A stretch of 64,000 bases of DNA, taken from NCBI GenBank assembly GCA_003330885.1, contig CP030277.1:1984001-2048000 (forward strand), in the 5' to 3' direction. A program made the translations under genes and the position numbers. This document shows, piece by piece, positions 19,189 to 23,174 of this stretch. The stretch's first letter is position 1, and the number at the start of each line of letters is the position of its first letter. The notes below the pieces were generated by a model. The model worked only from the letters and a program-made list of their open reading frames with translations, ran no database searches and had not been told where the DNA came from. Source of the DNA: Rhodobiaceae bacterium (GTDB taxonomy: Bacteria > Pseudomonadota > Alphaproteobacteria > Parvibaculales > Parvibaculaceae).

Positions 19189-19550
19189 GACTTCACGAAA
19201 ACGACGGATAAGTTCACACCCAAGGCCACGACCGTGGCCCGGCGCTCCTGCGCCGCTCCCGCGAAGGCCCACGCGAATGCGTCCGGCCGTGAGCGATAAA
19301 AAGGCGTTTGCGCGTGAGCAGGAGGAGCCCCACCCTTCCCTCTCCCCCAAATGGAGGAGAAGGAAGGTCCGGTGCATGGGGGGATGCGGGGGGACACACG
19401 CACCGGTGGGGTAGTTTCGACGATCACCGAAGATCGTATCAGTCATTTGGGTACGCCCAAGCTCGCGACTGCGAGCCGGGCGGTCAGCCCGCCCTGGCGG
19501 AGGCGGCGGGCGCGAGCCCGCATCGCCGTGAGCAACGAGAGACCAACCCC
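19189..19550. repeat. Intergenic region with two copies of a palindromic repeat
   Basis: Two copies of a dispersed element are recognisable: about 19215-19295 (GCCACGACCGTGGC stem, then GGCGC..GCGCC) and about 19444-19535 (GCTCGCGACTGCGAGC stem, then GGCGG..CCGCC), each ending near CGTGAGC. Between them (19318-19400) is a G/C-rich stretch with CCTTCC and GGAAGG arms. Related copies are at 20.55, 23.30 and 24.17-24.31 kb. No gene is supported in this stretch; the open frames are low-complexity products of the repeats. Confidence 0.65.
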
Positions 19551-19919
19551 TTACATCACCGGCATATAGACAACCGGGCCACCAAGGGTGACATAGGCAT
19601 CAATGGTGGACGCAATGAAGAGCGCCGCTGCCCAGTTGATCGCCACGACACAACCAAACCACCGAAGCGCTGAGGCAAGACCTGTCCAATTGCCGTTCAC
19701 AGGATCAGCCGGATTGTCATGATCGCCGAGTGCCGCGAACAACCAGGCGACACCGGAGATTTCGAGAGCCGGAACCACCACCAGCAACCATTCAAACAAA
19801 TCCTCGGCAGGGTCGAGCCCCAACCGGTGGACGAGGAACAGGAACAATGCCGCACCCACGGCAAGTGTCCGCGCGTGCGTCAGATTGAACAAAGTTTCTC
19901 TCTCTAGTTCGATATTCAT
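19551..19919 (-). CDS. Small hypothetical membrane protein
   Basis: A 122-residue protein with about three to four hydrophobic segments (ARTLAVGAALFLFLVHRL, LFEWLLVVVPALEISGVAWL, and a C-terminal pair), probably an inner-membrane protein. The ATG at 19919 has a strong GGAGG site nine bases upstream, which decides against the longer frame. Its leader on the minus strand is unusually structured (several hairpins between 19945 and 20102) and a candidate RNA with a terminator lies further upstream, so it may be under RNA-level control. No function can be given. Confidence 0.65.
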   Translation of the reverse strand: MNIELERETLFNLTHARTLAVGAALFLFLVHRLGLDPAEDLFEWLLVVVPALEISGVAWLFAALGDHDNPADPVNGNWTGLASALRWFGCVVAINWAAALFIASTIDAYVTLGGPVVYMPVM

Positions 19920-20262
19920 TTTCTTTAACCTCCGTACGCGGGCCGAGCGAAACCGATCGCTCCCGACACACGGAAACTCCTTGTACAGATTTATTGATCG
20001 AGCCGACCCCAGATCAATCGCAAGGAGGGCAGGCGCCACGTAGGCGAACGAAACCCCTCACCGCGACGTGAAAGTCGCAGAGCCGATGCGCGAAACTCGC
20101 GCGTTACATCACTGAAAAGCCGAAGCGGAAAACGTGAGGCAGGACGTTAAGCGTACGAACCGACGGACACGTGAATCGCAGGGTTTTTCAGCGTTTGGGA
20201 ATGAAAACAAACCATCTGACTATCCTTCGATTGTTATCGGGTCACCTTTTGGGGCCATACAT
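19920..20262 (-). promoter_or_regulatory. Structured leader region upstream of the small membrane protein
   Basis: No coding region is supported here. On the minus strand there are at least four hairpins: GAGCGA/TCGCTC (19945-19962), ATTGATC/GATCAAT (19993-20018), GCGAC/GTCGC (20063-20078) and GCGCGA/TCGCGC (20088-20102). They sit between a candidate RNA with a terminator and the Shine-Dalgarno of the membrane protein gene. The density of perfect stems suggests a structured 5' leader; function is unknown. Confidence 0.45.
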
Positions 20263-20406
20263 ACAAAAAGCCCCAACAGGATCTGGTGGGGCTTTGAAAG
20301 TGACTTCGGATAAGCGCGGTTGCGCTTAGTCGCAAAGGAGCCCGCCCCAGGGCTCCGATTGCCAGCCCATAGATGGGCGCCGATATTTTGTGGTCACTGT
20401 CATGGG
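20258..20406 (-). ncRNA. Candidate structured small RNA with intrinsic terminator
   Basis: Read on the minus strand, a promoter-like TTGACG (20439-20434), 17-base spacer and TACTCA (20416-20411) precede a chain of helices. The closing stem pairs AGTGAC (20398-20393) with GTCACT (20304-20299), plus TCGG with CCGA just inside. Enclosed are hairpins at 20378-20365, GGAGCCC/GGGCTCC (20356-20337) and TAAGCGC/GCGCTTA (20328-20311). A terminator with a T-run follows. The 5' segment holds a second copy of the 3' arm of the first hairpin, allowing an alternative fold. I could not match it to a known RNA family. It may be a trans-acting RNA or a riboswitch-like leader of the downstream membrane protein gene. 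Confidence 0.6.
20262..20297 (-). terminator. Rho-independent terminator
   Basis: AAAGCCCCA and TGGGGCTTT (20295-20287 and 20275-20267) form a 9-bp perfect stem with an 11-base loop, followed on the minus strand by TTTTTGTAT once the stem's own T residues are counted. This is the clearest intrinsic terminator I saw in the window and defines the 3' end of the candidate RNA. Confidence 0.75.
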
Positions 20407-20728
20407 CGCTTGAGTACACCCGCCATCACGCGACGTCAACAACACTTGCCGATGTTTTTTTGTTTCATCCGCTCCAAGACAAACTTGAGCGCAATGTGTG
20501 ATGCAAGAGTCACAGAATGTAAATGCGAAGTGAAGGTGACAAAGCAACATACCCAAGGTCACGACCGTGACCCGGCGCCCCTGCGCCGCCCTAACGGAGG
20601 CGGCAAGCAACGCGAACTCGCCGTGAGTGCAAAGCAACGTGAGCGATCAACCAGAGTCCTGTTGCATCACACCGCACAACACGCGAACCTCTTCTCAAAG
20701 AAACAAAAGACCACCGGAGGAAACAAAC
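20407..20728. repeat. Gene-free region with RNA promoter and one palindromic repeat
   Basis: The left part holds the minus-strand promoter-like elements of the candidate RNA. At about 20550-20647 lies another copy of the repeat with the stem GGTCACGACCGTGACC, then GGCGCCCCTGCGCC, ending near CGTGAGC. The last bases (CCGGAGG at 20714-20720) are the ribosome site of the DUF169 gene. I see no further gene. Confidence 0.55.
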
Positions 20729-21526
20729 ATGGCAACGAATGCAAACTGTTGGGGTGATGAAACGGAATATGATTTCAACGACCTCACTGCAAAGCTCAAC
20801 CAATACTTACGACTAAGAACCAATCCGGTCGCCATGAAACGCTTTGCAACGGAAGCAGATCTCGACGCGATCCCGAAACTCCGCCGTCCCCGCGAGGGCG
20901 AGCTCATGGCTACTGACCAAATTGTCGGTCAGTCGCGCTGGATCGGCTACACCATCGGCGTCACCATGAAAAACCTCATGGGCCAGCAATGCGGCGCCGT
21001 TGTGGGCCTCACCGCACGGGATGAAGAATTTCTCGACGGCAAACGCTTCCATGGTGTCTGGTATGGGGACCTGGAAGGAAGCGCCGAACATCAGCGGGAA
21101 ATGTCCTGCGCGCCTCATGGCGACTATGAGGCGCTCGTCACCTCGCCGCTCATTTCAGGCCGCATCGACAATCCGGACATTTGCCTCATCTACGGCACGC
21201 CCGGTCAGATGATTACGCTGATGAACGGCCTGCAATATAAGAACTACAAGAAGTACACCTTCACCTGCGTGGGCGAGAGCTCATGCTCGGACAGCTGGGG
21301 CAATGCGCTCAAAACCGGCGAGCCCTCCATGTCCATCCCTTGTTATGCAGAGCGCAAGTTTGGCGGTGTGCAGGATGATGAAATGCTGATCGCCCTGCCG
21401 CCTAAATTCTTGCCCCAGATCGTCGACGGCCTCGCCGCCCTCTCAAAGAACGGCCTGCGCTACCCCATCCCCAACCACGGGATCGACAAGTCCCCCATGG
21501 CCAGCATCACTCAGAGCTATGGGTGA
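20729..21526 (+). CDS. DUF169 family protein
   Basis: A 265-residue cytoplasmic protein. The N-terminal segment LNQYLRLRTNPVAMKRF and the later blocks MNGLQYKNYKKYTFTCVGES and MSIPCYAERKFGGVQDDEML match the DUF169 family as I remember it; these proteins have several conserved Cys residues (here in FTCVGESSCSDSW and SIPCY) and are often near redox or one-carbon enzymes, but have no settled function. ATG 20729 with a CCGGAGG site eight bases upstream fixes the start. Confidence 0.8.
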   Translation: MATNANCWGDETEYDFNDLTAKLNQYLRLRTNPVAMKRFATEADLDAIPKLRRPREGELMATDQIVGQSRWIGYTIGVTMKNLMGQQCGAVVGLTARDEEFLDGKRFHGVWYGDLEGSAEHQREMSCAPHGDYEALVTSPLISGRIDNPDICLIYGTPGQMITLMNGLQYKNYKKYTFTCVGESSCSDSWGNALKTGEPSMSIPCYAERKFGGVQDDEMLIALPPKFLPQIVDGLAALSKNGLRYPIPNHGIDKSPMASITQSYG

Positions 21527-21569: not shown

Positions 21570-23174
21570 ATGAGCGAAAGAACATGTGAATACCAAAGTC
21601 CACCAGATGTCTTGGGTGAACGAAAGACTTGTCAGTTTATGTCGGAGTCCAATGCACTAGATAGGCTCGTTGAAGTCGCAGATCGGCACTTTTGTCCTTA
21701 TCACCTACCTCACAGCGCAAAAACTCAGGGCGAAACTTATGGTCGAAGCACACCAACCCTAATCCCTAATCGAAAGGAAAACTGGAGCTCCGCAGACATC
21801 GAAGTATTCAATAATGACATACTCGAGCGCATAGAAACTGCACTAAAAAACGGGACGCATTGCGACCTATCCGGTGTAGTTTTTCCCGGTAGCTTTTCTT
21901 GCGCCGATCGCGCACTCCCAGAAATCGATTTCAGCCATTGCCGTTTTGAGAGGGGCAACGTGGACTTCTCCGGCGCGGAGTTCAGTGGAAATACTGCCAG
22001 CTTCTCAAGTGCTGTTTTCAGCTGCGTTGACGTTTCCTTCAAAGACACGCTTTTCACATCCAAGCGGGCCGAGTTTTACGAAACTGTTTTCAGGTGCCTC
22101 GACGTATGGTTTGCAGGCGCCGATTTTTCAGACTGTTATGCAGCCTTCAGTGGTTCAAACTTTGACTGCAATCACGTCGATTTTCTTGGGGCAAGCTTCA
22201 CCGGTGGGGACAATTTCCAACGGACCAAATTTTCCGGTACCAGCACATCTTTTTCAAACAGCCAATTTACCGGCGGAGATTTTTCGCTAGCGGAGTTTGG
22301 CAGCGATGAAACATATTTCGATAGAGCGGAGTTTCTAGACGGGTACCCGACCTTCGAAAACGCGAAATTCTTTGGTCATAAGGTAGACTTCTCCAATTCT
22401 GCTTTCTGTACAACCGTGTCATTTGCTGCGTCACCGAGAAAAAAAGCAGACATCAGAGAGCTCGCATTCGGCGAGTTGAATTTCAACAACGCAAATTTCG
22501 CATCCAGAGTCTCGTTTTCCAACCGTGTATTCCTCGCCGCAACGAGCTTCAAAAACACTGGGTTCGCTCGCGCGCCAGAATTCCACGGATGCGAGCTTCA
22601 TCAGAACACTGCATTTCCTTCAATAGGTAGCTTCCGAGATACATCATATAAGGGTGCCGCCACCGCCTACCGCACGCTTAGGCTAGCGATGAAGCAGCAG
22701 GAGGCTCATGAGGAAGAAGCAATGTTCTGGGCTCTGGAGCAAATATCGAAACGCAATGATCTGGAGTGCAATCCTCTCAACAATTGGAAAAACTTGTTCA
22801 ACTGGATACCTTGGTCGCTATCAGCAGTATATGCACTGCTCTCCAACTATGGCTTGAGCATAAACCGCCCCCTTGTCGCTCTCACCGTCTGGCTCTTCGG
22901 TGCGACCCCAATCTTCTATTTCTGCCTCCGCAGCAACGTAGACAAACTCTTCGGGTCGACCACCTATAGCGACCTGCTCGGTTTTTCTATCGCCCAGTCT
23001 TTGAGGCCCTTTTTCATATGGGGCGACTATAACGGCTCCGGCATCAGATCTGTGCTGGGCGAGAATGTGAACGTCTTGAGCGTGAAACTATTCGCAACAG
23101 CAGACAGTCTGATCAGTTTGGTTTTGATCGCCTTGCTCATCCTCGCGGTGCGCCGTCGTTTCCGGATGCAATAG
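21570..23174 (+). CDS. Pentapeptide-repeat-like membrane protein with Cys-rich N-terminus
   Basis: A 534-residue protein. Residues about 1-60 have Cys and His pairs (CEY, TCQF, HFCPYHLPH) that could bind zinc. Residues about 95-350 are quasi-repeats of roughly 20 residues built on xxDFSGAxF / xASFSxxxF units, implying a right-handed quadrilateral beta-helix. The C-terminal 140 residues have two or more transmembrane helices and a basic end (AVRRRFRMQ). Base composition looks more AT-rich than that of the flanking genes, hinting at horizontal origin. Proteins of this plan are found widely but have no defined function; the membrane part recalls small ion channels. Confidence 0.8.
   Translation: MSERTCEYQSPPDVLGERKTCQFMSESNALDRLVEVADRHFCPYHLPHSAKTQGETYGRSTPTLIPNRKENWSSADIEVFNNDILERIETALKNGTHCDLSGVVFPGSFSCADRALPEIDFSHCRFERGNVDFSGAEFSGNTASFSSAVFSCVDVSFKDTLFTSKRAEFYETVFRCLDVWFAGADFSDCYAAFSGSNFDCNHVDFLGASFTGGDNFQRTKFSGTSTSFSNSQFTGGDFSLAEFGSDETYFDRAEFLDGYPTFENAKFFGHKVDFSNSAFCTTVSFAASPRKKADIRELAFGELNFNNANFASRVSFSNRVFLAATSFKNTGFARAPEFHGCELHQNTAFPSIGSFRDTSYKGAATAYRTLRLAMKQQEAHEEEAMFWALEQISKRNDLECNPLNNWKNLFNWIPWSLSAVYALLSNYGLSINRPLVALTVWLFGATPIFYFCLRSNVDKLFGSTTYSDLLGFSIAQSLRPFFIWGDYNGSGIRSVLGENVNVLSVKLFATADSLISLVLIALLILAVRRRFRMQ

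Follow-up and report, generated by a model that had tools for sequence, protein, structure and literature searches.

A putative leaderless leader-peptide attenuator upstream of an orphan membrane-protein gene in an alphaproteobacterial family

The known system most similar to the element reported here is the alphaproteobacterial trpL attenuator, whose RNA has the start codon of a short leader ORF at its 5' end (PMC7298713). According to the accessible text of that source, rnTrpL of Sinorhizobium meliloti starts at the trpL ATG, carries an antiterminator/terminator switch and, when terminated, is an sRNA. Nascent peptides form a second point of reference, since RAPP and RGPP motifs are reported, in the consulted portion of PMC12992588, to support robust arrest. 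Our literature search found no leader-peptide paper for Parvibaculum and nothing on the present element, and the available part of PMC2965389 does not mention Parvibaculum; this absence from print holds for the searched literature only.

The element lies on the minus strand of a 64,000-nucleotide stretch of a Rhodobiaceae genome, referred to as the window. Its parts, and the reading frames downstream of it, are listed below.

20411-20439, minus strand: promoter, TTGACG (20439-20434), 17-nt spacer, TACTCA (20416-20411); spacing to the ATG is the same in relatives
20326-20403, minus strand: ORF1, leaderless leader ORF with its ATG at the predicted +1, encoding MTVTTKYRRPSMGWQSEPWGGLLCD; stop codon TAA within hairpin 3
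20393-20401, minus strand: 5' arm of the closing stem, equal to ORF1 codons 1-4; paired in 100% of alignment cells, with a single G-C pair replaced by A-U
20365-20378, minus strand: hairpin 1; in relative G005 its aligned form is not retained
20332-20362, minus strand: hairpin 2, whose loop holds the antiterminator candidate; compensatory change at two pairs
20344-20349, minus strand: UGGGGC, the antiterminator candidate, within the hairpin 2 loop (ORF1 codons 19-20); complementary to 20287-20292
20311-20328, minus strand: hairpin 3, with the ORF1 stop codon inside; compensatory change at two pairs
20296-20304, minus strand: 3' arm of the closing stem, which is paired in 100% of cells
20263-20295, minus strand: intrinsic terminator; GCCCCA (20292-20287) is its 5' arm, and UUUUU follows
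20147-20215, minus strand: uORF2, encoding MVCFHSQTLKNPAIHVSVGSYA, with SD AAGGA, between the terminator and the membrane gene
19551-19919, minus strand: small membrane protein, the presumed regulated gene; 122 aa, SD GGAGG, four predicted helices, family-restricted

A sequence-only reading had claimed a promoter-like pair with 17-base spacing, a closing stem around three hairpins, and a terminator. Both promoter boxes are indeed present, and the claimed helices, including the terminator hairpin, constitute the minimum free energy fold (z = -2.82; 4 of 200 shuffles equally stable). The fold is also kept in all seven members of the genus. In the seven-sequence alignment 92.2% of cells are paired and 6 pairs have changed on both sides, giving a covariation score reached by none of 500 shuffles. 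A DNA search of 61 genomes recovered the element in 7, which are all 7 of the window's genus searched, in single copy each; a sequence pattern scan found it in five genome records, again all of this genus, and none in viral contigs; plasmids had no match. The promoter, fold and terminator thus form a real, genus-conserved RNA element. A generic promoter/terminator scanner listed neither its promoter nor its terminator, because the rule requires a T ending the -10 box and a short loop. The composite pattern (TTGAC..., 17 nt, TA...., 7 nt, ATG, short ORF, terminator), drawn up after the element was seen, occurs once in the window and in none of 60 Markov shuffles. An Rfam scan of the window yielded no match above gathering score, and only weak chance matches fell on the element (E up to 5). 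One of the families considered, asX2, was rejected: it covers only the terminator region, on the opposite strand, with 23.2 bits where the gathering score is 70. The element's sequence family and its target are new to the libraries searched; its probable kind, the leaderless attenuator, is already known.

The predicted +1 (20403) coincides with the first base of the ORF1 start codon, ATG; this frame has 25 codons, and its stop precedes the terminator. Both the start of transcription at this base and the translation of ORF1 are predictions from the DNA. The sequence-only reading had overlooked both ORF1 and uORF2. Start, frame and stop of ORF1 are kept in 7 of 7 members of the window's genus, including two divergent relatives, which encode MTVTKTYPVRFWGLHAYLPGRGIRV and MTVTQTYPAQKWCCYSYQHTYPRDWVVCV (the latter ORF 12 nt longer); here the sequence is altered and the place of start, frame and stop is retained. 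ORF1 analogues occur at 21 further loci outside the genus. The predicted start also bears on a switch proposed earlier, in which two copies of ATGGGCGC would compete for one partner. Both copies exist, yet the one at 20402-20409 lies almost wholly upstream of 20403, and it is not kept in relatives, which carry ACGCCCATG, GCGACCATG, ACGCTCATG or ACGTTCATG there; that switch does not stand.

Conservation extends to three genera. Of 40 family genomes, 28 encode a homologue of the small membrane protein, and at all 28 loci (7 of the window's genus, 19 of g5, which is probably Parvibaculum, and 2 of g3) the membrane gene is preceded by a terminator and, at the 5' end of the RNA, an ORF 24-29 codons long. 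The promoter, TTGnnn-16/17-TAnnnn-6/7-ATG, is retained at 26 of them; L069 has a weak -35 box and L084 no clear promoter, and the starts of both were placed by hand. In g3, the terminator's U-run and the start of the membrane gene are 36 nt apart, so that readthrough is the natural route to expression of this gene. Model R1, run with filters off, placed its top matches directly 5' of the membrane gene in many family genomes (22 loci searched, best E 0.0036). A run of R1 over 289 class genomes gave 5 weak matches outside the genus (E 0.011-0.038). A looser 5'-end pattern allowing 2 mismatches gave candidate matches in 22 of 40 family genomes. Model R2, made from 18 g5 elements only and run on 385 class genomes at E <= 0.01, reported 17 genomes: three of the window's genus, one of g5 and 13 others. 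It recovered the window element exactly at its ATG (genome position 2004403, window 20403; E 0.0039), and matched two further members of the genus, G002 (9.6e-4) and G003 (0.0043).

The sequence-only reading had left open whether the element is a free sRNA or a riboswitch-like leader of the membrane gene. The position before this gene, conserved in three genera and down to a 36-nt gap in g3, upholds the leader part of that proposal. A trans-acting sRNA, in which the fold matters for itself and the 5' AUG is incidental, would account for the strong closed fold with its compensatory changes and for the roughly 20 bases near the 5' end that are conserved in the window's genus and mostly unpaired; a terminated transcript is expected as well. 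We nevertheless consider this reading unlikely, as each of the 28 loci has an AUG on its predicted start and a stop codon in an equivalent place, always before the same gene family, the g3 gap leaves almost no space for a separate membrane-gene promoter, and the fold is not the same in g5.

The membrane protein itself matched no family in Pfam or NCBIfam and had no significant PHROG match, and its structure model (mean pLDDT 81) matched neither PDB nor viral entries at E <= 0.001. A search of 385 class genomes detected the protein in 4, each a member of the family (in the protein alignment, L068 was excluded because it contains X, and sets of near-identical loci were thinned). The divergent DUF169 gene (20729-21526, plus strand), which within the family is present in all 7 genomes of the window's genus and 1 other, was rejected as the regulated gene: the element accompanies the membrane gene in g5 and g3, and this DUF169 protein occurs in only 8 of 40 family genomes. 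Farther along, a pentapeptide-repeat protein (21570-23174, plus strand) has a C-terminus that by eye looks membrane-spanning. A 54-nt GC-rich direct repeat (19215-19268 and 20548-20601, plus strand; 83% identical) flanks the segment with the leader and the membrane gene. Its core is present in 2 copies in the window against 0 expected, and it is possibly a dispersed element linked to movement of the segment.

The same anatomy appears in amino-acid leaders elsewhere. The 13 R2 matches outside the family were read individually, and two (L093, L094) proved to be leaderless Thr-rich leaders, whereas no such anatomy was seen in the remaining 11. In these other alphaproteobacteria, the leader preceding thrS encodes MSQMRKHQQVTTTWTADRRPRGVGLC and the one preceding asd encodes MTQATKRATTTKTKPSGAGIARA. 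A scan of the window's own genome for TTGAC-N18-TA-N11-ATG gave 4 matches, against 0 in the reversed control, among them the window element, a leader of leuA and the start of a TetR-like protein (L142, by eye). The leuA leader (L144, around 3277017-3277055) is a leaderless 16-codon ORF, MMTNRTALLRLTTPAA, with Leu codons (ALLRLTT), 238 nt upstream of leuA, and is likely a Leu attenuator.

These parallels weigh on the other half of the earlier proposal, riboswitch-like sensing. A ligand riboswitch or protein-binding leader that regulates the membrane gene with no need for ORF1 translation would suit the leader position and the conserved 5' stretch in the window's genus. It is nonetheless very improbable: Rfam has no match, the fold varies between genera while the ORF layout and terminator are constant, and the anatomy coincides with that of the Thr and Leu leaders. 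The sensing part is more likely a translated leader ORF than an aptamer for a ligand. The element is probably neither an independent sRNA nor a ligand riboswitch, and a free sRNA released by termination is possible as a by-product.

We next consider what ORF1 encodes. Over 13 distinct g5 ORFs (28-codon group; L069, L070, L078, L082 and L084 omitted, L088 a duplicate) its pN/pS was 1.49, so that no selection on the g5 peptide is shown; in the five closest genomes, with few changes, the value was 0.41. A second reading frame over the region is also open. At the DNA level, all 18 aligned g5 elements carry GGGGCC unchanged. A peptide with no clear constraint around an invariant motif fits, without proving it, a leader that is read for the position of the ribosome instead of for its peptide sequence. 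These data also touch on a different possibility, namely that ORF1 is a free-standing leaderless gene whose 25-aa peptide acts in trans, with the terminator ending the gene and the membrane gene having its own promoter in the window's genus. Such a gene would have exactly the observed leaderless ORF with promoter and terminator, the membrane gene begins about 340 nt downstream, and trans action has a precedent in peTrpL (as presented in PMC7298713). The poor conservation of the peptide between genera, the lack of amino-acid constraint in g5 and the constant linkage to the same downstream gene make this reading quite improbable.

Codon composition gives hints of a signal. Across codons 2-16 of 13 clade representatives (L077 dropped), Trp was observed 9 times against 2.2 expected, Phe 13 against 3.8, Met 9 against 2.8 and Thr 27 against 16.5, in a post hoc comparison of 20 residues among related lineages. 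Thr codons are frequent at the beginning of ORF1 in the window's genus, and none of the loci tested shows consecutive regulatory codons for a single amino acid. Given the over-representation of Trp and Phe and the frequent Thr codons, limited amino-acid charging or a general slow-down of translation are candidate stall signals.

How a stalled ribosome could be sensed is suggested by the UGGGGC in the loop of hairpin 2, which can base-pair with the GCCCCA that forms the terminator's 5' arm. The six-base complement is found in the five closest genomes. In G005 the loop has changed from G to A and the arm from C to U, which keeps the antiterminator pair as A-U and turns the terminator's own pair into U-G; this single covarying pair, reached in 70 of 500 shuffles, is not significant alone. 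We simulated the switch by hiding the first 24-48 nt, as if under a ribosome, before the 3' arm of the terminator is made. In the window, an early stall gave a modelled probability of 0.70 that the terminator arm pairs with ORF1; without a ribosome, or with one at the stop codon, the value was 0.00. When early-stall pairing was compared with 60 codon shuffles (11 of 28 loci), it was reached by at most 3% of shuffles at 8 loci and by 8%, 12% and 38% at the other three, the last being the window, whose own pairing is thus no better than codon shuffles (0.38); nor is the length of its antiterminator duplex (0.41). With the full-length RNA (14 of 26 loci modelled) the terminator dominates at 13 of 14, and any switch must therefore be kinetic, as it is in classical attenuators. 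At several g5 loci the terminator arm was captured already without a ribosome. An antiterminator/terminator switch operating in vivo is a prediction from this pairing potential.

Building on the observed anatomy, conservation, pairing potential and one compensatory change in the antiterminator, we propose, with a probability of roughly 0.7, that the element is a leaderless leader-peptide, ribosome-dependent transcription attenuator of the orphan membrane-protein gene. As the first base of the transcript would be the A of the ORF1 ATG, the nascent RNA would be a leaderless mini-mRNA. A ribosome that reaches the ORF1 stop would leave GCCCC free for the terminator; with no ribosome, the closed multi-branch fold of the window's genus would likewise leave it free. 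In either case transcription would end near 20263 and release an RNA of about 140 nt. A ribosome held early in ORF1 would instead open the closing stem, allowing GGGGC to capture GCCCC first, and RNA polymerase would then run on into uORF2 and the membrane gene.

The second micro-ORF, uORF2, was examined by codon tests in five groups covering 20 of 26 loci. For the five closest genomes, pN/pS was 0.36 in frame and 1.05 or undefined in the other frames. The in-frame value was 0.15 in a six-locus g5 group (other frames above 1 or undefined), 0.44 in a window-genus pair (1.93 and 0.83 out of frame) and 0.46 in a g5 pair (1.37 and 1.64); a g5 group of five loci gave 0.74 in frame and 0.56 in frame 2. 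RAPP or RGPP stands near the C-terminus in 9 of 19 g5 loci and is absent from all 7 loci of the window's genus, where uORF2 ends in (A)I(D/H)VSVGS. The g5 micropeptides that end in IRAPPR or contain RGPP before the membrane gene (for example L087, 1254-1319) are conserved and are candidate arrest peptides. In g3, the 36-nt gap between terminator and gene leaves no room for uORF2.

In part of g5 the leader may serve further genes. Among 12 genomes checked, 3, all g5, have trpE at 2-3 kb beyond the membrane gene, and the other 9 have it elsewhere. The latter include the window's genome, with trpE at 924 kb and the element at 2004 kb, a location that does not support a trp role there. In the one trpE-linked g5 genome that is annotated, ppiD lies between the membrane gene and trpE; no such leader was seen before ppiD in three unlinked genomes with a readable start. 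At L110 (G018), L108 (G015) and L109 (G010), tpiA (named by eye) and ppiD-trpE flank the segment with the leader and the membrane gene. From this placement, the attenuator may also control the trp genes in part of g5. More tentatively, one could imagine a leader with two checkpoints, in which ORF1 tests ribosome progress at the level of transcription and uORF2, as a RAPP/RGPP arrest peptide in many genomes of the Parvibaculum group, gates the membrane protein and in some genomes ppiD-trpE, while the terminated RNA may act in trans as both mini-mRNA and sRNA.

The proposed attenuator recasts what looked like an orphan sRNA as a testable regulatory leader and would tie an uncharacterised membrane-protein family to translation sensing. 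Its simple signature (promoter, 7 nt, ATG, short ORF) is shared by Thr and Leu leaders of Alphaproteobacteria, and the variation of the downstream genes by genome, the membrane gene alone or with ppiD-trpE, would offer a natural case of attenuator re-use.

Compared with known systems, the uORF2 of 9 of 19 g5 loci resembles the arrest peptides ApdA, ApdP and CruR, as far as these are described in the accessible text of PMC12992588 and PMC9426467, in having RAPP/RGPP near its C-terminus and in lying upstream of a membrane-protein gene; it differs in that the uORF2 peptides are short (13-36 aa) and those of the window's genus lack the motif. Relative to rnTrpL, as described in the consulted part of PMC7298713, ORF1 is longer (25 codons against 14), lacks a Trp-codon run and, in the window's genome, has no trp genes downstream. 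The Thr leaders L093 and L094 share with the element the promoter-to-ATG layout, a leaderless short ORF and an early terminator with a GCCCC arm, and the leuA leader shares the exact promoter-ATG spacing and a leaderless short ORF. All three, however, carry runs or groups of their cognate codon and precede the genes of that amino acid, whereas the gene behind the window element encodes an orphan membrane protein.
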